NCBI GenBank assembly: GCA_017446455.1 | Contig: JAFSQV010000022.1 | Location: 1 to 49,021 of the forward strand | Direction of reading: 5' to 3' | Source: Paludibacteraceae bacterium | GTDB lineage: Bacteria; Bacteroidota; Bacteroidia; Bacteroidales; Paludibacteraceae | Length of the DNA: 49,021 nucleotides | Shown: piece after piece, positions 3,048-36,303 of the stretch | How the letters are laid out: every line of letters begins with the position of its first letter | Numbering within the stretch: position 1 is the first letter of the stretch | Program-made: the position numbers and the translations under genes | The notes under the pieces: generated by a model | The model's database searches: none | Told to the model about the DNA's origin: nothing | Seen by the model: the letters and a program-made list of their open reading frames with translations, nothing else

Positions 3048-3053
3048 GTTTTA

Positions 3054-3081
3054 TTGATGATTTATGATTTATGATTTCAAA
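3054..3081. repeat. Heptamer array in the MATE leader
   Basis: Four heptamers in one register: ttgatga, tttatga, tttatga, tttcaaa. They lie between the MATE start codon and its predicted -7 element, so they would be transcribed as part of the 5' untranslated region. Confidence 0.75.
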
Positions 3082-3089
3082 TTTTGGCA

Positions 3090-4700: not shown

Positions 4701-5885
4701 TTACATCTCCGGTGCTCCTTCGCGCAGCACGCGTGCGATGATCTCCACAGCCTCATCGATGACCGGTTCGGTATGGGTAGCCATGAGCGTAGTACGCAGC
4801 AGGCACTCGCCTTCTACGCACGCAGGCGCGATAACTGGGTTCACATACACACCCTCATCGAACATCTTCTTACCGAAATACAGCGTATCCAGCGTCTTGT
4901 ACGTAAAGATCGGCACGATAGGCGTCGGTGCCTCGATGATCTTCACGCCGTTGGCCAACAGCTGTTTCTGGAAATATTTGGCGATATTCATCAGACGCTC
5001 CGGACGTTTCGGATCGAGGATGAGCTGATGCAATGCCTCGAGTGCCGTAGCAGCCGAACAAGGAGTGATGGATGCGGAGAAGATGAACGGACGGCTCACG
5101 TGACGCAGCCAGTCGGCTACGCGATGAGAAGTCAGCATACAACCTCCGATAGACGCGAGGGATTTAGAGAAGGTGAGCATGGTGATGTCCACTTTGTCGG
5201 TTAGACCGAAGTGGGCCGCCGTACCACGACCGCCCGGGCCTAAGACACCGAAACCGTGCGCATCGTCCACCATCACACGCGCATCGTATTTCTCAGCCAA
5301 CGCGCAGATCTCCGGCAACTTACAGATATCGCCGCGCATGGAGAACACACCATCCGTGATGATCAGTTTACCGGCATTCTCCGGGATAGACTTGAGTTGA
5401 CGCTCGAGGTCCTCCATATCCGAGTGACGATAACGAAGCACCTTCGCATAACTCAGACGGCATGCATCGTAGATAGAGGCATGGTTCTCGCGGTCATTGA
5501 GGATGTAGTCATCCTTACCGGCGATTGCAGAGATGATAGCAAGGTTGGTCTGGAAACCCGTCGAAACGGTCATTGCCTCCTCGTAACCGGTGAACTCCGC
5601 GATCTCTTTCTCAAGCTGCAAGTGCAGATCCAGCGTTCCGTTGAGGAAGCGGCTACCGCTCACACCCGTGCCGTATTTATCCAGCGCTTCGTGACCGGCC
5701 TTGATGACTGCTTCGTTCTCCGTGAAACCCAGGTAGTTATTACTACCGAGCATGATCACGCGGTGGTTCTCCATTTTCACGATCGGCGCCTGACGGCTCT
5801 CCAACTCGTGGAAATAAGGATAAATCCCTAATTTGCGAACCTGTTTGAGGGTCTCAAAATGGTCACATTTTTCGAATAGATCCAT
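4701..5885 (-). CDS. spt: Serine palmitoyltransferase-like alpha-oxoamine synthase
   Basis: A PLP-dependent enzyme of the alpha-oxoamine synthase family, 394 residues. Seen: the N-terminal GSNNYLGFT, His135 in NHASIYD (the stacking His), Asp207/Asp208 in DDAHGFGVLG, and the PLP lysine 241 in TFSKSLASIGG. The opening (RKLGIYPYFHELES) matches bacterial serine palmitoyltransferases of Bacteroidota, which join L-serine and a long acyl-CoA to make 3-ketosphinganine for sphingolipids. Family relatives are glycine C-acetyltransferase (kbl) and 8-amino-7-oxononanoate synthase (bioF); no threonine dehydrogenase or biotin gene is nearby, which favours the sphingolipid role. It lies between mdh (128-base gap full of heptamer repeats) and ldcA (3-base gap) on the same strand. 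Confidence 0.82.
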   Translation of the reverse strand: MDLFEKCDHFETLKQVRKLGIYPYFHELESRQAPIVKMENHRVIMLGSNNYLGFTENEAVIKAGHEALDKYGTGVSGSRFLNGTLDLHLQLEKEIAEFTGYEEAMTVSTGFQTNLAIISAIAGKDDYILNDRENHASIYDACRLSYAKVLRYRHSDMEDLERQLKSIPENAGKLIITDGVFSMRGDICKLPEICALAEKYDARVMVDDAHGFGVLGPGGRGTAAHFGLTDKVDITMLTFSKSLASIGGCMLTSHRVADWLRHVSRPFIFSASITPCSAATALEALHQLILDPKRPERLMNIAKYFQKQLLANGVKIIEAPTPIVPIFTYKTLDTLYFGKKMFDEGVYVNPVIAPACVEGECLLRTTLMATHTEPVIDEAVEIIARVLREGAPEM

Positions 5886-5896
5886 TGATAGATGAT

Positions 5897-6013
5897 AGTT
5901 TAGAGTTTAGAGTTTAGAGTTTAGAGAAGTTTGCAAGTTTTAAGTTATAAGTTTCTCTTTCAACTTTCCACTAGACGGCTTCTCTCAACTCTCAACTTTC
6001 AACATTCAACTTA
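5897..6013. repeat. Long in-register heptamer array between mdh and spt
   Basis: Sixteen consecutive 7-base blocks (5897-6008) in one register, with the word changing along the way: agtttag four times, then agaagtt, tgcaagt, tttaagt, tataagt, ttctctt, tcaactt, two irregular blocks, then tctctca, actctca, actttca, acattca. It occupies nearly the whole 128-base gap. No stable hairpin or promoter motif was recognised in it. Confidence 0.85.
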
Positions 6014-6955
6014 TTAAAGTACGTTGAGGTCCTTGAGGATCGCGGTGGTCTTACGAACAGCAGCCTCAGACTCATGCAGTTTCGCGCGCTCTTCGTCGCT
6101 GATGTTGAGCTCAAGAATCTTCTCAATACCATTCTTGCCGATGATACAAGGCACACCGATGGTGATGTCCTTCATACCATACTCACCCTCGAGAGCAGCG
6201 GAGCACGGAATCATCTTCTTCTGGTCCTTGATGATCGCCTCAGCTACCGATGCAGCAGCAGCACCCGGAGCCATCCATGCGCTCGTGCCGAGCAGACCGG
6301 TCAGCGTAGCACCACCTACCATGGTCGATTTAACAACATTCTCCAACTCCTCAGGGCTCAAGAACTCCGATACGTTGATACCTTTATAGGTGGTATAGCT
6401 CGTCAACGGAATCATCGTCGTGTCGCCGTGACCGCCAATTACGAAACCGTCTACATCGTTAGCATTGCACTTGAGCGCCTGGCTCAAGAAGTATTTCAGA
6501 CGTGCGCTATCCAATGCGCCACCCATACCGATCACGCGGTTGCGCGGCAACTTGAGGGCGTGCAGCGTCAGATAAGCCATCGTGTCCATCGGGTTGGAAA
6601 CAACTACCAAAATAGCATTCGGGCTGTATTTGAGCACCTGGTCACAAACGGACTTCACGATACCGGCGTTGACACCGATCAACTCCTCGCGAGTCATACC
6701 CGGCTTACGGGGCAGACCGGAAGTGATGATGACTACATCCGAACCGGCAGTGCGGCTATAGTCATTGGTAACACCTTCTACGACGGTGTCAAAGCCCATC
6801 AACTGAGCCGTTTGCATGATATCCATCGCTTTGCCCTCTGCAAAGCCCTCTTTGATGTCGATAAGACATACCTCGTTAGCTACCTCATTGACAGCCAACA
6901 CATTCGCGCACGTAGCTCCTACGTTTCCTGCGCCTACAACTGTAACTTTAGACAT
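6014..6955 (-). CDS. mdh: Malate dehydrogenase
   Basis: Interconverts malate and oxaloacetate with NAD. The 313-residue protein is of the LDH-like malate dehydrogenase type. Visible: the dinucleotide loop GAGNVG at 8-13, Asp33 at the end of the second strand (NAD rather than NADP preference), Arg83 and Arg89 in LPRKPGMTRE for substrate binding, Arg152, and the catalytic His176 in GGHGD. Length and both ends are normal. The gene has its own promoter (7031-7062), divergent from the thioredoxin gene. spt and ldcA follow on the same strand after a repeat-filled gap, so they may be read through from this promoter. Confidence 0.96.
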   Translation of the reverse strand: MSKVTVVGAGNVGATCANVLAVNEVANEVCLIDIKEGFAEGKAMDIMQTAQLMGFDTVVEGVTNDYSRTAGSDVVIITSGLPRKPGMTREELIGVNAGIVKSVCDQVLKYSPNAILVVVSNPMDTMAYLTLHALKLPRNRVIGMGGALDSARLKYFLSQALKCNANDVDGFVIGGHGDTTMIPLTSYTTYKGINVSEFLSPEELENVVKSTMVGGATLTGLLGTSAWMAPGAAAASVAEAIIKDQKKMIPCSAALEGEYGMKDITIGVPCIIGKNGIEKILELNISDEERAKLHESEAAVRKTTAILKDLNVL

Positions 6956-9213: not shown

Positions 9214-9255
9214 GAGGATTGGAGATTGGAGATTGGAAATTTGACATTTGATAAG
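9214..9255. repeat. Heptamer array filling the antiporter/SDR gap
   Basis: Six heptamers directly after the antiporter stop: gaggatt, ggagatt, ggagatt, ggaaatt, tgacatt, tgataag. One further base precedes the next ATG at 9257, so the spacer is almost entirely repeat. Confidence 0.85.
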
Positions 9256-10771: not shown

Positions 10772-10773
10772 TT

Positions 10774-10808
10774 GTGTAAGGTGTAAGGTGTAAGGTGTAA
10801 AGTGTAAA
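10774..10808. repeat. Perfect heptamer array abutting the helicase start
   Basis: Five back-to-back copies of gtgtaa(g/a) that end exactly at the ATG of the DEAD-box gene (10809). With two extra bases it makes up the whole gap after the SDR stop, so the ribosome-binding region of the helicase is repeat sequence. Confidence 0.92.
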
Positions 10809-13525: not shown

Positions 13526-13713
13526 TTTTGAGCACATTTTTTTATAGAAAGGAACTATTCAGGAACGAAAATGTCTTATTTCCTTTGAGAGCATATCGGG
13601 GGCATGTCGGGGGCATATCGGGGGCAATTCGACATTTAGAACATTTTGCACTGTTTCGTCAAGGTGCCTTTTTTGCATTAAAATGTGTAAAAATTGACAA
13701 GTTTGCAAATAAA
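13526..13713. other. Gene-free stretch between tRNA-Leu and the flavodoxin gene
   Basis: No gene recognised here. It contains the 11-base repeat at 13591-13623, a loose inverted pair (GAAAGGAA near 13546 with TTCCTTT near 13580) and another (ACATTTT 13641-13647 with AAAATGT 13680-13686) surrounding a T-rich stretch. None makes a convincing terminator or RNA. Confidence 0.5.
13591..13630. repeat. 11-base tandem repeat upstream of the flavodoxin gene
   Basis: GCATATCGGGG, GCATGTCGGGG, GCATATCGGGG, then a truncated GCAATTCG. It is non-coding and lies about 90 bases upstream of the -33 element of the next gene. The period matches the 11-base array in the reductase gene at 35380-35423, but the sequence differs. 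Confidence 0.85.
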
Positions 13714-14411: not shown

Positions 14412-17400
14412 ATGAGAAAAATTTTCCTCTTTGTCGCCATCTTGTTTGCTTCCTTTGCTTTGGGAGCAGACATTTCTAATTTTGCCTCCGGCATCGAGAA
14501 CGGAACAACCGGAATTAACAAAGGAGAATGCAGTTCTATCGCCGTCTCCACGGACGCCCCGCGTACGGGAGCGCAATGCCTCTCGACCGCTTACACAAGC
14601 GGAACGAATTCCAAAAAATGGTATCCGAATGTCACGTTTACCGTACCAAAGAACTCCTATTTGCATGTAATCGGTTATGCCAAGTTGCTTTCTACGGATG
14701 GAACATCCGCCAGTTCGAGCACACAGGCTTATGCCTGTGCATATCTTGGTGGGGATAATAATGGAACAGCCGTTAATTTAACTACCTCTTGGCAGCGCAT
14801 TACGGTTTCCAAGAAGGCCAGTTCAGACCAAAGCGGAGCAAAAGCCTATTTTTACCGCAAGCACACTGCGAAAAAAGAGGTATTGTTTGACGATGTTATT
14901 GCATATGTATCGACCAACTCGTCTGTGGATTTAATGGCGCCGAACGCCGCCACTTCGGCTTCAGCCACGGAAACGGAAATCACTTGGACCTGTGGAACGG
15001 ATGCCAAGACGGGTGTGCAAGCCACCCTGATTTGGAAGCGGACCTCCGGTACTGATGATGATTTGACACTAAATCCGCAGGGAATCTATGCGTTGGCTGC
15101 AACCGAAGGACCGAATGTCGATCAAAGCGGACATTGGGAGTTGGTACGCGTATTAGCCGCTGATGCCACGTCGTTTAACGCCGTTGGTTCGTTTGCCAGC
15201 AACGAGCGGTATGCGATTGTTCACCGCGACTTGGCGTATAACTATTCGAATCCGACCTATGTAACGACTCCGGACTTGTCCGTGAGAACGCTTTACTTGA
15301 AGCCGAGTGGGGATTGGTTGAGTAAGGGCGGATCCATTGACCCTCGTTTTGCAGTGTATTGTTTTGGTGGCGGAATTGAGGCTAAATGGTATGATATGGA
15401 ACTCGTGGATGCCGGATGCAGTTCGAGCATCACACTTTACAAAGCAGAAGTGAGCAAGAGTTATACCAGTTTGATTTTCTGCCGTATGAAAGGTGATGAT
15501 CCGGACAATAACTGGAACAAGCCGCCCTTATGGAACCAAACCGCCGACTTGACCATGCCGACTACCGAAGTGGCCGTGTATGAAGAACAGCATGGTTCGA
15601 GTTGGAACGGAAGTGACAATACTCACTGGAGAACCACTCCGTTGAATCTCTGCGTATCGGGTAATTGGCTTTGCTTTGCGGGCGAACAACTGACCTTGAC
15701 CGCTACCAGTATCGGTGCAACACATTACCAGTGGTACAAAGGCGGCACAGCCGAGAGTAACAAGATTCCTGGCGCCACAACGGCCACCTATATCAACTAC
15801 AACTTTAAGTTTGAAGATGCGGGAGACTACTATTGCAAGACGAAATTAGGTGATGGTACAGAACTGACCAGCACTAAACATACCGTTAAGACGCTGCGTA
15901 TCTATATTAGAAACGGTCGAGATGGCGGAGAGTACGGTTATGTCGATTTACAAAATACCGACCCCGCTAGTCATAAAGCAACGGGAATGATTTTCCTTGG
16001 CCAAGCATGGACATATGGTTTTGGTGTGAATGATGGTGTCGGGAATGAATATGGATGCAACAATCCCGAGTCCAGCAAGATGTGGAGTGGTAATTGCACG
16101 AATTGGACTATGAATGCGCCGGGCATTAAATGTCTTATGTGGACAGAGAATGGCGCTACCTATGCTTTCACGGTGGATTACACCAATTTTACCGTTCCTG
16201 TTGTTTCCGTAGCCTATCCTCCTTCCAACCAAGCAGCAGATATAATGATTTATTTCGATAACAGTTTGGTCAACTGGAGCGATCTGCATTACCGCGTGGG
16301 TACCACAAGCCACACAGATAAAACGGCTATAAGTTTGGTGCCCGGTACGGAAAATTTGTACCAATACAAAACGGTCGACCCAGGTTATAGTTTGGAAGCA
16401 TGGCATATCGCAAACAATTGTGGATATAGCGGTGATGGCTATTCTATCTATCAAACCAATACCGGAGATAGTTACGAAATATCCAAATCTGTTACCTATG
16501 AAGGTGGTGCAACCTCGCAGGACATCACTATTGTTCCGACCGGAACTTATTCAAAAGGTACCGATTCTTACAACAATCGGTGTGACTTTTACAACTACAC
16601 CATGCTGAAAGGCATGAAGACACAGAACGTGGTAATTGATGGCACGGAGAACGGAACCATCACAGTTAGTTATACGGATGTGAATGGTGATCCACAGTCG
16701 TTCACGAGTGGCGATCGCGATTTGGCGCATACTTGTATCTTGACCATCACGGCTGACGCTAATCCATGCGGGTATCAGTTGAAGTCTTTGTCCGTGAACG
16801 GTTCGCCTTTCACGAGCGGAAACACCTATACTCTGGATGCACGCACCACGATTGATGCGGAGTTCGAAACTGCCACCTACAGCGTGACGCTGCATGCGAA
16901 TGGCGGGTTAATCTTGGCAGGCGACGTGACGAATTACGCCTTTGGCATCGGTGCAACCTTGCCTACCCAGATGTCGCTGACCGGTAAGGACTTCAAGGGA
17001 TGGTATGACAACCCCGGTTTTTCCGGTTCGCCTGTAACAGAGATCACGACTACCGACTGCGGCGACAAAGAATACTGGGCAAAATGGGAAAACGAGAAAC
17101 TGAAAGTGACCTATATCATCGGCGGCTGTCAAGTGACCGGCGGTGAGTGGTTACAAGGACAAGACGGCAGTTACAGCGCGTGGCTGTTCAAAGGCGGATC
17201 CGCACCAGCTGCAAACAGTCTAACAGCCACATCAGACATCAAGATTCCTTCACTCAGTTCTACCGATCAGTGGTTCTTGACCAAAGATGTAACGCTTCTG
17301 ACCTCCAGCAGCGATTGGAGTCACACCAATGATGCCACGACGAAGGCGAACAAATCGATTCGCGCTTTCAAGGTAGGAAGCGGTAGTACTGTGAAGTTTG

Positions 17401-20400
17401 ACCTGAAGGATTTAGTAGCCAGCAGCATCATGTTTTATGTCTTCCCGAGTAATAATGATGCGTATTCGGTGGATATAACAGTAAATGGCACTACCACAAC
17501 TCACCCGATCGCGTCGGGTGAGCAATACCAGTTGCACCGCTTTGACTATTTTGAGGGTTCCTATACCGGGGAGTTTTCTATCAAGAGTGTGGGTAAAGAG
17601 AGTCGCGTCGTGGTAGTAGTAGAAGTGCCGACCGTGACGATCACCTTCGACAAGAACGGCACAGAGGCAACCGGAACAATGGAGCCGCTGGTCGTTCCCA
17701 AAGGCACACAACCAACCTTGCCGGCGAATAACTTCGTATGGACGAACCATGAGTTCCAATGCTGGACAGAAGGTTCTACTACCGGTCCCGCGATTGCTGA
17801 TGAAGCGAAATACACAGCGACCGCCAACGTGACCCTCTTTGCCAAATGGATTGAGCATATAGAGACCGTAGTGACCTTGAGTGCGCCGGATGCGGAGAAC
17901 CAAGAAGAATATACCAAATCCGTGACAGCTGTTTATACGCAGGCTATGCCAACTGTAGCAGTAGTGCCTACACGCGAGTGGTATACCTTTGAGGGTTATT
18001 TTGAGAATCCGGACGGTTCCGGTACACAGTACTATGCTCCGACAGGTGAGGGCGTGACTGCTTGGGATAAAACCAGTTCGACGGCCACGCTCTACGCCAA
18101 ATGGACAGAGATCAAGCATACGGAAATCACCTTAGTAGCTACCGGTGCATACAACCACTATACCTCTTCGGTAGTTGCCGGACTGAATCAGCCGATGCCA
18201 GTTATCTCGACACTGCCGCAGAGCACTACGGACGTGTTTGCCGGCTATTTCGAGAATCCGGATGGCAGCGGTACGCAGTACTATACTGGAACAGGAACAG
18301 GTGCAAAAAACTGGGATAAGGATGTTACCTCCGCTACGCTCTACGCCAAATGGTTAGAGCCCTGCGATGTCGCGCCTACATTGACCTCAGCGGCACCCAT
18401 CATCACCATTTGGAACGGCAAGAAAGCGGATGTGACCTTGGCGACTTTGTCCTGCTCAGTAGACACAACGACGCTTAAGTACTTGTACGTTTCAGCAACG
18501 GATAACATCACGGGCTGCGAATATAAATTCTTCGACTCGCGTCTGCATATCATCGGTACGCCTACGGGGTACACAAGCGCAGTAACAAAGGATATCACAT
18601 TTACGTTCAAGAACAACTGCGATCCGGCAAGAACCTATACCGTAACGCAAACCATTCGCATCAACCCGGAAGGTCAGAAGGCACGTATCGCCTTTATCTT
18701 GACCGGTACAGAAAGTGGAGGTTTTGACGCATACACGGAAAGCGACTCTACGAGTTGCGCGGAACTCATAGAGTACCTGAACCGAACCTATGACGTGCGA
18801 TGCGTGAATGGTTACGCAACTAAGAACGTATCAGATCTGGCTACCTATTATTCCAATTACGACCTGCTGATTGTAACCGATTTCCTTGACACAGGTAAAG
18901 GTTACACGAATGCGATCGGTACGCTGATTGATAAGAAACCTATTCTGAGTTTTGAGGCTTATGTAGCAAACCAATCGAACTGGCATATCGGTTCGAACCC
19001 CAAAGATCCGAAACCGAAAGTACAAGACATGAAAGTGCTTTGTGCCGGTCACGCTATCTTCGCGGACGCCAAATATGACGATACAGATACGGATTTGGTT
19101 GACGTAATCAATGATACGGACACAACCGTACACGTATTAGATGCCTTAAGTTCGGAAGCGAAAGCAAAAGGTTTGCAGGGCTTCACCATCAATGAAGCAC
19201 CGGACTTTATCTTCTTGGCAACGATACGCGATGAAGACAACAAGCGCGACCTGATTGTATGCTGCGAGCGTCAAGTGGTATTCTCTGCCCGACTGATGCT
19301 GTACGGTATCAATTTCTACGAGATGGGCAACTTATCCAAGGCAGGACGTATCATCATTCGCCAGATGGCGGACTACCTGCTGATGACCGATGAGACGAAA
19401 ATCGCCGACTGTTCGCTGGTATTCGACAACGGCGCCGGCAACCCGGATAAGAGTAGTTGCGGCGACAATAAATGGAACAATCCGGCCAACTGGTATCCCG
19501 GATACAACATCATTCCGACACCGGTTCATCCGACGCGTATTGTGGCAGAGTGCCATGTGGATTATGACGCAGCACATGCCGGAAGTGTGAAAGTGAACAC
19601 CGGTCGAGACGAACACGGCAAGACTGTAAACGGCAAGTTGATTATCGAGCCGAATGGCGGATTGACCATCGCCGGTATGGTAGCAACCGTACACGACACG
19701 CGGTATGCTTCGCCGATCACTATTTCTGCACAAGACTTGTTAATCAAAGCCGATGCTTCTCATAATGGTGCCTTTGTATATGGCAACAAGGAATCGGATG
19801 TTCGTGCGACAGTGCAATACTATAGCCGCGGAACAGATGCCAAGACGGCTAGTCCGGTATGGCAATACATGGGTATTCCGTTCCAAGCCGCACATACCGC
19901 TATCCAAATGTACTACGAGGCATGGATGTGCCGCTGGGCGAGCGGTTCGACCGACGGCTTAGGCGGACTCTGGAAGTGGGTAGAAAACGATGAACTATTA
20001 CTGCCGTTCGAAGGTTATTGTATCACGCAGGAAGCAGCGAAGACCTATACCTTCTCCGGTAAACTTAACCCACCCGTCACAACTCGTATCGTATTGGACA
20101 ACCGCGATGCGGACGGATACGCTTTTGCTGCCAACAGTTGGACCGCACCGATCAAGATTTCACAGATGCAAGATGCGGACTTTATTAATGCAGATAAATC
20201 CATCTATATCTATCATACCGGAACGTATGCCCAATGGAACACCAACAAAGAAACGGTCATCAATACAAAGACCAGCAGTAGTTCGATTGTTCCGGGTCAA
20301 TATGCCGTTATTCCTATCCACTCGTCGCCATACATCGGCGTGGATTCCGTTATTCCGGCTATGCAGGGATTCTTCGTTCATACGACTGCTGCGAATGCTG

Positions 20401-21038
20401 AACTGAAACTGGTTTATAACCGCACCGTATATGACGGCTCGTATTTCAAGACCTCCACACAACCGATGCGTGCACCACGCAGCGAGAGCCGACCGGAAGT
20501 GATGCAACTGATTGTCAGCGGTGAGAACTATGGCGACCGCGTACATATCCTTGCTCGCGACGGTTTCTCCGAAAATTTCGAAGACGGATGGGACGGCCGT
20601 AAGATTGAGGGCGACGAGAACGCCCCGATGTTAGCGGTAGTGAAAGAAGCCGGCGACATGGCTGTAGCGGCGATTGAGACGGCAGAGGAACGCGAGTTGA
20701 GTTTCCGCGCGGGTAGCGAGACGGAATACACGTTCTGCTTCCAATACGAAGGCGAGACGATTTATCTGTACGACCGGTTAGCGGACCAGGCGGTGGAGAT
20801 CAAGACGGGTAACACCTACTCCTTCACGGCGGAGAATAAGACCGCGGCTAAACGGTTTATCATCACCAAGAACCCACCGCGTATACCGACAGGCATCGAG
20901 AACACGTCTGACGCATCATACTCCGATGCAGAGAAATGCATCATCGACGGCCAGTTGTATATCATCAAGGACAATCGCTTCTACGATGCGCGTGGCGTTC
21001 GGGTTCATTCCTTTAACAGAAAGGAGGTGACGCCATGA
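14412..21038 (+). CDS. Giant secreted multidomain surface protein, probable type IX cargo
   Basis: A 2208-residue exported protein. Signal peptide at 1-19 (ends SFALGA). Then a carbohydrate-binding-like beta-sandwich (about 21-170); an Ig-like domain (about 412-495, with YQWYKGG and DAGDYYC); four InlB/Listeria-Bacteroides-type repeats ending in WAKW, LFAKW, LYAKW and LYAKW (about 823-893, 1073-1147, 1152-1232, 1235-1315); an alpha/beta domain (about 1423-1650) starting RIAFILTGTESGG; a segment with the NKWNNPANWYP pattern; and a C-terminal tail ending with QLYIIKDNRFYDARGVRV, like type IX sorting tails of Bacteroidales. Probably an adhesin or polymer-binding protein at the outer surface; the ligand is unknown. 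The following gene overlaps by 4 bases (ATGA), pointing to translational coupling. Confidence 0.85.
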   Translation: MRKIFLFVAILFASFALGADISNFASGIENGTTGINKGECSSIAVSTDAPRTGAQCLSTAYTSGTNSKKWYPNVTFTVPKNSYLHVIGYAKLLSTDGTSASSSTQAYACAYLGGDNNGTAVNLTTSWQRITVSKKASSDQSGAKAYFYRKHTAKKEVLFDDVIAYVSTNSSVDLMAPNAATSASATETEITWTCGTDAKTGVQATLIWKRTSGTDDDLTLNPQGIYALAATEGPNVDQSGHWELVRVLAADATSFNAVGSFASNERYAIVHRDLAYNYSNPTYVTTPDLSVRTLYLKPSGDWLSKGGSIDPRFAVYCFGGGIEAKWYDMELVDAGCSSSITLYKAEVSKSYTSLIFCRMKGDDPDNNWNKPPLWNQTADLTMPTTEVAVYEEQHGSSWNGSDNTHWRTTPLNLCVSGNWLCFAGEQLTLTATSIGATHYQWYKGGTAESNKIPGATTATYINYNFKFEDAGDYYCKTKLGDGTELTSTKHTVKTLRIYIRNGRDGGEYGYVDLQNTDPASHKATGMIFLGQAWTYGFGVNDGVGNEYGCNNPESSKMWSGNCTNWTMNAPGIKCLMWTENGATYAFTVDYTNFTVPVVSVAYPPSNQAADIMIYFDNSLVNWSDLHYRVGTTSHTDKTAISLVPGTENLYQYKTVDPGYSLEAWHIANNCGYSGDGYSIYQTNTGDSYEISKSVTYEGGATSQDITIVPTGTYSKGTDSYNNRCDFYNYTMLKGMKTQNVVIDGTENGTITVSYTDVNGDPQSFTSGDRDLAHTCILTITADANPCGYQLKSLSVNGSPFTSGNTYTLDARTTIDAEFETATYSVTLHANGGLILAGDVTNYAFGIGATLPTQMSLTGKDFKGWYDNPGFSGSPVTEITTTDCGDKEYWAKWENEKLKVTYIIGGCQVTGGEWLQGQDGSYSAWLFKGGSAPAANSLTATSDIKIPSLSSTDQWFLTKDVTLLTSSSDWSHTNDATTKANKSIRAFKVGSGSTVKFDLKDLVASSIMFYVFPSNNDAYSVDITVNGTTTTHPIASGEQYQLHRFDYFEGSYTGEFSIKSVGKESRVVVVVEVPTVTITFDKNGTEATGTMEPLVVPKGTQPTLPANNFVWTNHEFQCWTEGSTTGPAIADEAKYTATANVTLFAKWIEHIETVVTLSAPDAENQEEYTKSVTAVYTQAMPTVAVVPTREWYTFEGYFENPDGSGTQYYAPTGEGVTAWDKTSSTATLYAKWTEIKHTEITLVATGAYNHYTSSVVAGLNQPMPVISTLPQSTTDVFAGYFENPDGSGTQYYTGTGTGAKNWDKDVTSATLYAKWLEPCDVAPTLTSAAPIITIWNGKKADVTLATLSCSVDTTTLKYLYVSATDNITGCEYKFFDSRLHIIGTPTGYTSAVTKDITFTFKNNCDPARTYTVTQTIRINPEGQKARIAFILTGTESGGFDAYTESDSTSCAELIEYLNRTYDVRCVNGYATKNVSDLATYYSNYDLLIVTDFLDTGKGYTNAIGTLIDKKPILSFEAYVANQSNWHIGSNPKDPKPKVQDMKVLCAGHAIFADAKYDDTDTDLVDVINDTDTTVHVLDALSSEAKAKGLQGFTINEAPDFIFLATIRDEDNKRDLIVCCERQVVFSARLMLYGINFYEMGNLSKAGRIIIRQMADYLLMTDETKIADCSLVFDNGAGNPDKSSCGDNKWNNPANWYPGYNIIPTPVHPTRIVAECHVDYDAAHAGSVKVNTGRDEHGKTVNGKLIIEPNGGLTIAGMVATVHDTRYASPITISAQDLLIKADASHNGAFVYGNKESDVRATVQYYSRGTDAKTASPVWQYMGIPFQAAHTAIQMYYEAWMCRWASGSTDGLGGLWKWVENDELLLPFEGYCITQEAAKTYTFSGKLNPPVTTRIVLDNRDADGYAFAANSWTAPIKISQMQDADFINADKSIYIYHTGTYAQWNTNKETVINTKTSSSSIVPGQYAVIPIHSSPYIGVDSVIPAMQGFFVHTTAANAELKLVYNRTVYDGSYFKTSTQPMRAPRSESRPEVMQLIVSGENYGDRVHILARDGFSENFEDGWDGRKIEGDENAPMLAVVKEAGDMAVAAIETAEERELSFRAGSETEYTFCFQYEGETIYLYDRLADQAVEIKTGNTYSFTAENKTAAKRFIITKNPPRIPTGIENTSDASYSDAEKCIIDGQLYIIKDNRFYDARGVRVHSFNRKEVTP
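16880..18355 (+). repeat. InlB-type repeats within the giant protein
   Basis: Four coding repeats of about 70-80 residues each ending in an (A/Y)AKW-type motif. Copies three and four are the most alike: both contain FENPDGSGTQYY and adjacent WDK.(T/V)(S/T)S.(A)TLYAKW, so they probably arose by recent duplication. A roughly 180-residue segment separates copy one from copies two to four. Confidence 0.8.
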
Positions 21039-33935: not shown

Positions 33936-36256
33936 TACTTACTACTCAGGTATTCGTGCATTGCTTTGGCTGCTTTGCGACCGTCACTCATCGCAAGGAT
34001 GACGGTTGCTCCACCGCGAACGATATCGCCTCCGGCGAAAATAGTCGGGATAGCGGACTGCATGCCTTCGTTGACGACGATGGTTCCTTTTTTGCTAATC
34101 TCAAGACCTTCTACGGAAGACGGGATCAGCGGGTTAGGACTGACTCCGACCGCAACAACGACTAAGTCAACGGGTATCGTGATGGTCTTACCTTCTACAG
34201 GCACCGGACTACGGCGACCAGACTCGTCAGGCTCGCCGAGTTCCATCACTTGAAGTACGGCCTCACATACACGACCGTTCTCATCGGCATGGTACTCGAT
34301 GGGGTTGTGGAGCGTGAGGAATTCGATTCCTTCCTGTTTGGCGTGATGTACCTCTTCGATACGCGCCGGCATCTCCTCTTCGGAGCGGCGATAGATGATC
34401 ATCGCGTGCTCCGCGCCCAGACGTTTAGCTGTACGTACGGCATCCATCGCGGTGTTACCACCACCGATGATAGCTACGTTCTTGCCATAGAGGAGCGGTG
34501 TGTCGGTCGCAGGATTGGAAGCGTCCATAAGGTTGACGCGCGTCAGGTATTCGTTGCACGACATAACACCATTGAGGTTCTCACCCGGGATGTTCATGAA
34601 GCGCGGGAGGCCGGCTCCTGAACCTACGAAGATGCCTGCAAAACCTTGCTCTTCGAGTTCCTTGACAGAGATAGTCTTTCCGATGATCGTATCCGTATGG
34701 AATTGTACACCGAGCGCACGAAGGCCGTTTATCTCTGTGTCCACGATAGCGTTCGGAAGACGGAACTCCGGAATACCGTATTTGAGTACTCCGCCTATCT
34801 CATGAAGTGCTTCGAATACATGTACTTCGTAGCCGTATTTGGCGGCATCACCGGCAAAGGTAAGGCCGGCAGGACCGGAACCTACCACGGCGATCTTCGG
34901 GCCGGTCGGAGTTTTCGGATTATTCAGATCAATCTGAGTATGCTGATTGGCGAAGTCGGCGCAGAAACGCTCGAGGTAGCCGATAGCTACAGCCGGGTGG
35001 CCCATCTTGAGATGGATACATTGCGACTCGCATTGCTTCTCTTGCGGGCATACACGGCCACAGACTGCTGGCAGAGAAGAAGACTCTTTGATGACAGCCG
35101 CAGCGCCAAGGATATCGCCGGTCTCGAGGGTCTTGATGAAACCCGGGATGTTGATATTGACCGGACAGCCTTGAACGCAAGTCGGGTTCTTACAGTTGAG
35201 ACACCGATGGGACTCCGTGATGGCTTGCTCGAACGTCAGACCTTGGTTAACTTCCTCGTGCAGCGATTTGATACGCACTTCAGGACGCAGTTCGGGCATC
35301 TGAACACGTGGTATAGCGACGCGATCTTTCGGTTTGCCTTCGAAGGGCTCTACCGGCTTTACAGTAGCCTTACCTTGGCTTTGACCGTCGGTTGACCGTC
35401 GGTTGACCGTCGGTTGACCGTCGTTCTTGGATGCTTGTTGGGCTTGGTATGCATTGAGGGCTGCGGTTTCTTCTGCCTTGAAAGCTTTCATTCGGCTGAG
35501 CATCTCATTCCAGTCTACTGCGTGGGCATCAAACTCGGGTCCATCGACGCAGACGAACTTCGTTTTGCCACCTACGGTGACACGGCACGCACCGCACATT
35601 CCTGTGCCATCGACCATGATCGTGTTGAGCGAAGCTTCGGTCGGGATATTGTATTTGGCGGTCGTGAGGGCAACGAACTTCATCATAATCGCCGGGCCGA
35701 TGGTGATACACTTATCGACCTTCTCGCGATTGATTACTTGCTCTACTCCTACGGTAACCACACCTTGCTGACCCGCAGAACCATCATCGGTCATGATGAT
35801 CACTTCATCGGACCATTGGGCGAGTTCATCCTGAAGGATAAGCAGGTCTTTGTTACGCGCCGCCAGGACGGTGATTACTTTGTTGCCGGCTTTCTTCAGG
35901 GCTTCCGCGATAGGCAACATCGGCGCAGCTCCTACTCCACCACAAGCGCAAACGACTGTGCCGTATTTCTCAATACGCGTCGCACGGCCGAGCGGTCCGA
36001 CCACATCGTGAAGACATTCGCCGGGTTCCATTGCTAAGAGTTTGCGCGTAGAAACGCCGATTTGTTGAACAACGAGGGTGATGGTACCGCGTTCGATATC
36101 AGCCGCGGAAATGGTCAGAGGGATGCGCTCGGAATTGGCATCCACGCGGATGATGACAAAATGGCCGGCTCTACGGCTACGCGCAATGAGCGGAGCTTCC
36201 ACTACGAGCTCCGCTACGTTGTCAGAGAAAAATTTCTTTGAAAGAATCTTATTCAT
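33935..36256 (-). CDS. Nfn-type fused NAD(P)H:ferredoxin/glutamate synthase small-subunit-like reductase
   Basis: A 773-residue fusion. Residues 1-275 match the FAD/NAD-binding reductase family (CACGGVGAAPMLPI; a cysteine cluster in GMCGACRVTVGG) like PyrK or NfnA. Residues about 310-773 match GltD/NfnB: the cluster motif CLNCKNPTCVQGCP, FAD loop VGSGPAGLTFAGD and NADP loop IIGGGNTAMDA. The fusion is widespread in Bacteroidota, often annotated as glutamate synthase, but without a large subunit it more likely exchanges electrons among NADH, NADPH and ferredoxin. The linker between the halves holds four 11-base repeats. Ends are abutted by dacB (downstream) and an 8-base repeat (upstream). Confidence 0.9.
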   Translation of the reverse strand: MNKILSKKFFSDNVAELVVEAPLIARSRRAGHFVIIRVDANSERIPLTISAADIERGTITLVVQQIGVSTRKLLAMEPGECLHDVVGPLGRATRIEKYGTVVCACGGVGAAPMLPIAEALKKAGNKVITVLAARNKDLLILQDELAQWSDEVIIMTDDGSAGQQGVVTVGVEQVINREKVDKCITIGPAIMMKFVALTTAKYNIPTEASLNTIMVDGTGMCGACRVTVGGKTKFVCVDGPEFDAHAVDWNEMLSRMKAFKAEETAALNAYQAQQASKNDGQPTVNRRSTDGQSQGKATVKPVEPFEGKPKDRVAIPRVQMPELRPEVRIKSLHEEVNQGLTFEQAITESHRCLNCKNPTCVQGCPVNINIPGFIKTLETGDILGAAAVIKESSSLPAVCGRVCPQEKQCESQCIHLKMGHPAVAIGYLERFCADFANQHTQIDLNNPKTPTGPKIAVVGSGPAGLTFAGDAAKYGYEVHVFEALHEIGGVLKYGIPEFRLPNAIVDTEINGLRALGVQFHTDTIIGKTISVKELEEQGFAGIFVGSGAGLPRFMNIPGENLNGVMSCNEYLTRVNLMDASNPATDTPLLYGKNVAIIGGGNTAMDAVRTAKRLGAEHAMIIYRRSEEEMPARIEEVHHAKQEGIEFLTLHNPIEYHADENGRVCEAVLQVMELGEPDESGRRSPVPVEGKTITIPVDLVVVAVGVSPNPLIPSSVEGLEISKKGTIVVNEGMQSAIPTIFAGGDIVRGGATVILAMSDGRKAAKAMHEYLSSK
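35380..35423. repeat. 11-base tandem repeat in the linker of the fused reductase
   Basis: Four copies of (g/t)ttgaccgtcg. On the minus strand it encodes part of the interdomain linker (about PTVNRRSTDGQ). Three extra copies add 33 bases, or exactly 11 codons, so the frame is kept. Confidence 0.9.
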
Positions 36257-36262
36257 TGTAAT

Positions 36263-36303
36263 ACAACTAGGAGCCTAGGGACCTAGGAACCTAGGATAGT
36301 TGT
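36263..36303. repeat. 8-base palindromic repeat in a self-complementary block
   Basis: Four near-copies of an 8-base unit built on CCTAGG (itself a palindrome), enclosed by perfect inverted arms ACAACTA (36263-36269) and TAGTTGT (36297-36303). The whole block can fold as a stem-loop between deoC and the reductase gene. There is no T-run, so it is not an ordinary terminator. Confidence 0.85.

Follow-up and report, generated by a model that had tools for sequence, protein, structure and literature searches.

A non-coding hairpin cassette with inverted heptamer arms at the mdh-spt gap of a rumen Paludibacteraceae genome, probably of an IVS-like selfish class

The STRRs of cyanobacteria are intergenic heptamer repeats, and REP elements (REP/RAYT systems) are short dispersed intergenic palindromes. 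The intervening sequences (IVSs) of 23S rRNA genes are hairpin inserts with inverted terminal arms; one form carries a gene for the four-helix-bundle 23S rRNA intervening-sequence protein (IVP; PF05635/TIGR02436), and a non-coding form is found in Salmonella. IVSs are described as sporadic, horizontally acquired and selfish (PMC4990558). In the Coxiella IVS, tandem heptameric repeats, two or three according to strain, lie just before the S23p ORF, and the RNase III site lies where the first repeat begins (PMC4990558). Seven is the most abundant intergenic period (PMC6344855), and the excess of heptamers in prokaryotic intergenic DNA is presented, as far as these accounts go, as lacking a settled explanation (PMC6344855, PMC4692102, PMC4679880). 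TAACTGA repeats, mostly direct, occur in Beggiatoaceae, cyanobacteria and Bacteroidetes (PMC4679880). The intergenic heptamers of Xanthomonas (GGGAATC) and Nostoc (GGGGA(C/T)T) were reportedly not, as a rule, found together with transposable elements or insertion sequences; for two Xanthomonas genomes 70 and 75 convergent inverted pairs are given, whereas in Anabaena inverted pairs are few, most repeats are unpaired, and the six plasmids have no repeats of this kind (PMC4692102). Among the titles and abstract openings listed, none links IVP with intergenic heptamer arrays. The Coxiella heptads come nearest. Heptads in one IVS (PMC4990558) and inverted heptamer pairs in Xanthomonas (PMC4692102) are already published.

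The window analysed here is a 49,021-nucleotide stretch of DNA from a Paludibacteraceae bacterium (genome G000). Within it a malate dehydrogenase gene (mdh, 6014..6955, minus strand; NCBIfam NF004863, 390.2 bits) lies upstream of a gene for a serine palmitoyltransferase-like enzyme of the BioF/Kbl family (spt, 4701..5885, minus strand; NCBIfam NF047600, 504.8 bits, below the cut-off of 640 for that model). The 128-bp gap between them, from the first base past the mdh stop codon to the last base before the spt start codon, is occupied by a hairpin cassette that we assign to family A (5886..6013, minus strand) from its lag-7 self-match, its RNA fold and the homologous element at the mdh-spt gap of other species. 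The self-match of 5886-6013 at lag 7 is 79/121 (0.65), against 0.19-0.32 at lags 1-6 and 8-13, and none of 5000 first-order Markov resamples reached it (maximum 58). This bears out the first-pass annotation, which had read the gap as an array of heptamers whose word changes: AGTTTAG gives way to ..AAGT and then to CTCTCAA/TTTCAAC, with a few non-heptad bases (GACGGC) in mid-array. Beyond that annotation, the two halves prove to be inverted, they belong to a defined 125-128 bp hairpin present at the same place in other species, and the element has diverged relatives dispersed elsewhere.

Read in the direction of transcription, the cassette is laid out as (GTTGARW)n - GAGAAG - core - CTTCTC - (TCTAAAC)n. 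The 5' arm (5979..6012, minus strand) is built of GTTGAAT/GTTGAAA/GTTGAGA/GTTGAGA heptads with GAGAAG at the end; the 49-bp inner part (5930..5978, minus strand) runs from CCGTCTAGTGGAAAGTTGAAAG to AACTTGCAAA and holds a smaller nested hairpin; the 3' arm (5897..5929, minus strand) starts with CTTCTC and continues as (TCTAAAC)n. The two heptad arrays are inverted complements of each other, bar one G.A mismatch per heptad, and these terminal arms form a stem, as those of an IVS do. The computed RNA fold is -30.8 kcal/mol (z -3.48), with no shuffle as good. The cassette measures 128 bp in the window and 125 bp in five relatives, and the insert of G145 is 49 bp shorter than the 125-bp form, the family-A loop having been removed exactly to the arms. 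A simple minisatellite, with one word in one orientation and a varying copy number, was rejected for this gap on the grounds of its two words of opposite orientation, its non-repeat core and the equal length in five relatives. Among family-A arms the in-phase register pairs in 79% of cells, compared with 27-53% for six registers shifted by 1-3. Covariation of the arms is moderate: in phase, variable pairs exceed row permutation to a moderate degree (19/500 reach the observed value), and covariation is clear in registers shifted by 7 or 14 (0/500). On A1, RNAalifold settled on a shifted register whose covariation term was almost nil; on A2 the covariation term was unfavourable. Rfam at gathering score matched tRNA only over the window. 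The cassette lies outside any 23S rRNA gene and has no IVP gene, for which, at ~120 aa, its 128 bp leave no room.

Three other gaps in the window behave alike, as had been noted in the first pass: 3048-3083 (no strand assigned; (ATTTATG)n, lag-7 match 0.72), 9214-9247 (plus strand; (GATTGGA)3, 0.81, with differing words in other species) and 10772-10808 (plus strand; (GTGTAAG)n, 0.90). A scan of intergenic DNA for an excess of period 7 was run on 315 kb of the 1.84-Mb genome (80% complete), namely the window and 20 further stretches. The excess was found: the 19.0 kb of ORF-free sequence in this sample contained 19 period-7 segments, against a mean of 0.0 in five resamples. Periods 8, 9, 11 and 14 gave 4, 1, 6 and 7 segments respectively, and periods 5, 6, 10, 12 and 13 gave none in the same 19.0 kb. 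Greedy ORF calls overstate the coding sequence, so that part of the arrays is counted within ORFs. Heptamer arrays lie within long called ORFs of G000 at L149 10118-10147, L148 13927-13967 and L150 12379-12409, and one of the in-ORF arrays then runs into the family-A core GAAGCCGTCTAG; the window also has an ORF of 2208 aa at 14412-21038. Period 11 ranks next after 7 and its double 14 among short periods in the ORF-free sample, with arrays in the window at 13591-13626 (GCATATCGGGG) and 35381-35423 (TTGACCGTCGG), and the window gap at 36257-36302 has an 8-bp unit (CCTAGGAA-like) in place of 7.

Across 962 kb of genus sequence, a sample biased by stretches some of which were picked at family-A matches, 157 arrays with 64 cyclic words were counted. 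The motif TTGA occurs in 16 of the 64 words against 6.6 when shuffled, which is a hint only of a core common to them. In 20 other families of the order, sampled as 8-20 kb stretches, period-7 segments were present in four genomes (G039, G046, G058 and G060); the periods from 5 to 13 apart from 7 had at most three segments, 14 (double of 7) being excepted. Like the published intergenic heptamers, these arrays are tandem 7-bp units in intergenic DNA that vary between close relatives; the published accounts, to the extent that they are cited here, leave the origin open and draw no link with an IVP gene.

The mdh-spt region was fetched as 90 genus loci; 83 species, G000 among them, were resolved, which left 7 loci unresolved. 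The gap measures 0-5 bp in 29 species (mostly TAA T ATG), 6-19 bp in 2 and at least 20 bp in 52, with 48 distinct inserts. Lag 7 is significant in 40 of the 52 inserts, lag 8 in 12 and lag 12 in one; lags 4-6 and 9-11 are significant in none of them. All 29 inserts of at least 60 bp fold at z <= -2 relative to mononucleotide shuffles, 27 of them at z <= -3. By reading, at least 12 word families can be told apart, several short arrays among them: A (GTTGAGA/TCTAAAC), B (TGAATAA/TTATTCA), C (GACGATT/AATCGTC), D (ATTTACC/GGTAAAT), F (GTCGTTT/AACGACC), G (GCCATCA/GCTGAAG) and the GACCGC types of H are examples. The inserts are without an IVP gene and are either hairpins of ~75-170 bp or shorter arrays, which may be single arms of hairpin elements.

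Inverted heptad-rich arms are associated with IVP genes in two phyla and with one 23S rRNA IVS of a third. The G071 equivalent of the gap at 10772-10808, 0 bp long in seven relatives, extends to 446 bp and encodes a 131-aa IVP, which matches PF05635 (119 bits) and TIGR02436, the solved structure 2gsc and, weakly, Avd; on inspection by eye, inverted heptamer-like arms stand on both sides of this gene. PF05635 has a match in 43 of 61 genomes. G000 has four, and the two of those listed that exceed the cut-off (L471 and L472) both have inverted arms and period 7. Arms were scored by local alignment of the upstream flank with the reverse complement of the downstream flank, at a threshold of at most 1/100 shuffles as good for IVP loci and 0/50 for control genes. 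Among the matches listed, 70 Bacteroidales IVP loci were scored (39 from the genus, 31 from other families). Inverted arms were found at 48/70 of them compared with 25/689 controls, a pooled Fisher p of ~3e-40 that is rough, like the p-values below, because the IVP loci lack independence: one genome may contribute several, and some, L524/L530 for example, are near-copies. The association holds in the genus (27/39 vs 17/429) and in the other families of the order (21/31 vs 8/260). Period 7 in the flanks is strongly enriched outside the genus (22/31 vs 7/260, p 4e-20) and modestly inside it (17/39 vs 109/429, p 0.02).

The arms are not peculiar to Bacteroidales, since they are found around IVP genes of cyanobacteria and of other Bacteroidota as well. 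On cyanobacterial plasmids (18 of the 21 cyanobacterial matches among 23 plasmid matches), arms were found at 13/18 loci vs 7/171 controls and period 7 at 12/18 vs 23/171; (GGGAGTA)n-IVP-(TACTCCC)n of Nostoc edaphicum is an example. In the sample of other Bacteroidota, 193/247 genomes have a PF05635 match. The best 30 loci, with controls from 20 of those genomes, gave arms at 19/30 vs 4/119, period 8 at 5/30 vs 0/119 and period 7 at 9/30 vs 2/119, the last falling short of the expected half, an expectation that was not written down beforehand. Period 8 recurs among IVP flanks. Significant inverted arms were absent from 22/70 Bacteroidales, 5/18 cyanobacterial plasmid and 11/30 other Bacteroidota IVP loci. 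An IVP match is absent from 10 of 37 genus genomes (68-98% complete), the array-bearing G016 included, and ten families of the order have IVP and no period-7 segment in their 8-20 kb stretches. The IVP match of Azospirillum lipoferum 4B is located within a 23S rRNA gene. The arms of this IVS, picked by eye in this one case, are inverted heptad arrays pairing over 33 bp with 4 mismatches; their lag-7 matches of 19/32 and 20/31 were reached by 1 and 0 of 1000 shuffles. The IVP of Gemmatirosa has repeats on both sides in the same orientation rather than inverted.

Several insert families have sequence in common with IVP flanks. The matches are those of family F with L488 (E 1e-14), I with L464 (1e-12), Hx with L474 (2e-8), H2 with L446 (6e-8) and A with L478 (2e-7), the last over 40 bp at 85% identity and weaker than those of F, I, H2 and Hx. 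Family B reaches E 8e-4 only, and families C and D have no match to an IVP flank, their best hits lying >900 bp from the gene. Weak profile matches relate the IVP/S23 family to Avd of diversity-generating retroelements. The arrangement of such retroelements places a four-helix-bundle gene near a reverse transcriptase. Pseudomonas phage Bise (L535) has a four-helix-bundle gene close to one of the reverse transcriptase family, and no heptad arms were seen there by eye. On cyanobacterial plasmids, IVP also has cas genes on its two sides, either cas6 and cas4 or cas10 and a gene of the Cmr3 family (L517, L518, L525). The presence of IVP in cas loci, pointed out in 2013 (PMC3936711), may be due to a selfish element having inserted there.

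Relatives of the insert families are dispersed through the genus. In searches that scored the best four candidates in most of 178 genomes, relatives of family A were found in 17 genomes (E <= 1e-15), of D in 44 and of C in 30 (E <= 1e-12). When aligned, the copies end at common positions, and the families are short, non-coding and multicopy with inverted arms, as MITEs are. These features could also arise if the cassettes were generic MITE- or REP-like palindromes moved in trans by some transposase, with IVP genes as passengers that often land in or between the repeats. A family-C copy at an unrelated site in G161, 96% identical over 108 bp to the G171 insert (BLAST), fits such an origin, and family C may have moved recently. 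Locus L302 of G018 fits it as well: there a second element (AATACAGACC...GGTCTA), inserted into the start of family A, has the 7-bp sequence TAATAAG duplicated on its two sides, perhaps as a target duplication. At family A itself no target duplication was seen by eye. Its diverged relatives adjoin unrelated genes, but among the best four candidates per genome copies at least 96% identical occur only at mdh-spt, which makes independent recent insertion from a mobile copy unlikely for this family. By global identity, a measure that penalises length differences, all 22 of the pairs listed at >=0.938 have a flank in common (one of them present on both strands, one a tandem pair), and different-site pairs reach 0.932. 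In G098, whole family-A cassettes stand in tandem with a period of 114 up to the contig end (L324, 1294-1516).

Searches for a resident driver covered the Y1 transposase and the reverse transcriptase RVT_1. The Y1 transposase (PF01797) has no match in G000 (80% complete); across the genus it matches in 15/37 genomes, exceeding 40 bits only in G027, and Y1 transposase/RAYT was rejected as the driver. Weak partial Y1_Tnp matches in G003, G008, G018, G020, G022, G032 and G035 lie mostly in open frames of ~360-410 aa. Reverse transcriptase was likewise set aside, RVT_1 having matches in 8/37 genus genomes and none in G000. A 21-base pattern from the family-A core gave no exact match in viral contigs, and viral spread of this family was set aside. 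The cassettes resemble REP elements in being short dispersed intergenic palindromes and differ from REP/RAYT systems in that G000 has no Y1 transposase match. The BrickBuilt MITE of Porphyromonas gingivalis (PMC4596501) is similar in being an intergenic element of Bacteroidales with a tandem repeat between inverted ends; it is described with 23-nt direct repeats and a separate leader and tail rather than heptad arms, and in that description no IVP link is drawn. The association of arms with IVP genes is strong and extends across phyla, which speaks against passenger genes, and we regard transposition of generic palindromes as unlikely.

A different origin would be replication slippage alone, in which a polymerase footprint of ~7 bases makes heptamer minisatellites in place (a hypothesis cited in PMC4692102). 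Short one-word arrays in some gaps and the behaviour of orthologous arrays are in keeping with slippage. At the gaps 9214-9247 and 10772-10808, compared in 30 species, words differ and array lengths change by whole units; at the former, G000 has one GATTGGA unit more than G168 and is otherwise identical (G071 against G141: 28 bp). Some arrays are identical between species (G006/G111, G003/G165), which is weaker evidence than that from mdh-spt, the arrays being this short. G142 and G000, which are close at mdh, differ at these two gaps and at mdh-spt. Against slippage stand the inverted arms with their non-heptad core, the common ends of dispersed copies and the conservation of long inserts. 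Family A is 96-100% identical in six species, G000 included, that show 55-67% identity at the third codon positions of mdh and spt. The inserts of G171/G200, G142/G168 and G003/G148 are 100% identical, at fourfold-site identities of 0.54, 0.58 and 0.44 (median over all pairs 0.49), and the first two pairs have 115 bp in common without a difference. Slippage alone is therefore disfavoured for the long inserts, though it could fully account for short arrays if none of these aligns with an arm of a hairpin family, and as a full account we judge it quite improbable. The repeat-building process with a 7-base step proposed in the first pass stands in part: period 7 is lineage-wide, it is kept as the word changes, and lengths change by whole units. 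It does not stand as simple construction in place, given an inverted arm pair that is near-identical in six species and an element that has diverged dispersed relatives and is replaced by others in sister species.

Cassettes at the mdh-spt gap turn over between species. On the mdh+spt tree, a quick tree with some long branches, the insert classes are scattered (A, 8 rows with 7 changes; D, 6 with 6; C, 4 with 4; B, 3 with 3); the 7 changes of class A compare with a shuffled mean of 7.7, and 111/500 shuffles are as low. Empty gaps cluster beyond chance (29 rows, 18 changes, shuffled mean 24.0, 2/500 as low), which means that emptiness is in part inherited. Of the sister pairs whose two flanks each reach >=0.68 fourfold identity, 16 are both empty, 9 have one member empty, 7 carry differing inserts and none carry the same; none of the 7 non-empty pairs has the same insert at 0.8 identity, and one of them sets A against loop-deleted A. 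This sporadic presence between close relatives is a further likeness to IVSs. The identity and the stable hairpin of family A, with near-identical copies found only at mdh-spt among the best four candidates in each of 178 genomes, could point to a conserved regulatory RNA that serves the mdh-spt operon and has been passed down vertically under strong constraint; but the sister pairs with unrelated inserts or none largely contradict that reading, as do the diverged relatives beside unrelated genes, and we give it very little credence.

The exchange appears to leave the neighbouring genes almost untouched. In 25 same-insert pairs, third-position identity of the flanks beyond 9 bp is close to that of other pairs, and substantial co-transfer of flanks was rejected on this basis. 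In the last 12 bp of mdh, third positions differ at 16/40 sites in ten switched sister pairs and at 1/40 in ten empty-empty pairs, which indicates that a short upstream tract changes along with the insert; 12-24 bases from the end of mdh the counts are 15/40 and 15/40. The first 12 bp of spt give 4/40 and 3/40, although codons there vary little anyway. G164 and G188 have the insert and mdh (0.94) in common and spt not (0.49), so mdh and spt recombine in their own right. As in horizontal regulatory transfer (PMC5890482), one gene pair is separated by non-homologous alternative intergenic regions that are incongruent with the gene tree. Compared with the cases outlined there, the species exchanging cassettes are far more distant, only ~12 bp of flank is detectably changed, and most of the mdh-spt alternatives have one architecture in common. 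That the pattern is an artefact of assembling or binning metagenomes, the genus genomes being fragmented and 54-100% complete and the best named relatives being MAG records, is hardly credible, as family A occurs in RUG and RGIG records of differing projects, flanks differ up to the last codons, and the same arms are found on cyanobacterial plasmids described as complete sequences.

Together these observations argue that the mdh-spt gap probably holds a non-coding hairpin cassette of an IVS-like class of selfish element. The full element would consist of an arm, an IVP gene and an inverted arm, the arms being tandem heptads with the words of one roughly mirrored in the other; the inserts at mdh-spt would be forms without the gene, and the window cassette may derive from such an IVP element. 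Seated past one gene's stop codon and ahead of the next gene's start codon, the word families would do little harm. In RNA the arms would form a long imperfect stem, which RNase III could cut out between the cistrons, by analogy with the excision described for rRNA IVSs (PMC4990558). A cassette in a gap can give way to another, near-identical cassettes occur at the same gap of distant species with hardly any flanking DNA (about a dozen upstream bases are altered along with the cassette), and arrays gain or lose whole heptads. IVP itself may act in mobility. The cassettes differ from 23S rRNA IVSs in lying between protein genes, in their many word families and in lacking the gene at mdh-spt. 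The convergent inverted heptamer pairs reported for Xanthomonas fit an IVS-like reading; the few pairs in Anabaena, the absence of such repeats from its plasmids and the general lack of a mobile-element link in the same report (PMC4692102) do not.

More tentatively, and with rather less confidence than for the mdh-spt cassette, IVS/IVP elements may, far from being a peculiarity of rRNA genes, rank among the most widespread selfish elements in Bacteroidota and Cyanobacteria, and probably in other phyla too. Their inverted arms would be built of heptads, and arms that were shed and copies without the gene would make up much of the intergenic heptamer excess. In this rumen genus they would have become fast-circulating intergenic hairpin cassettes that pass between species almost without flanks. 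Arms that frame IVP genes may then explain the long-standing puzzle of seven-base repeats in bacteria. The repeats would be tied to a definite gene family, which makes it testable whether heptad arrays appear and move with IVP elements, and the IVP/S23 family would gain a natural partner, namely a long hairpin whose repeat unit is 7 bases. The mdh-spt gap, where cassettes switch between species that differ by a few percent, is a natural experiment on the spread of short non-coding DNA without its neighbours.
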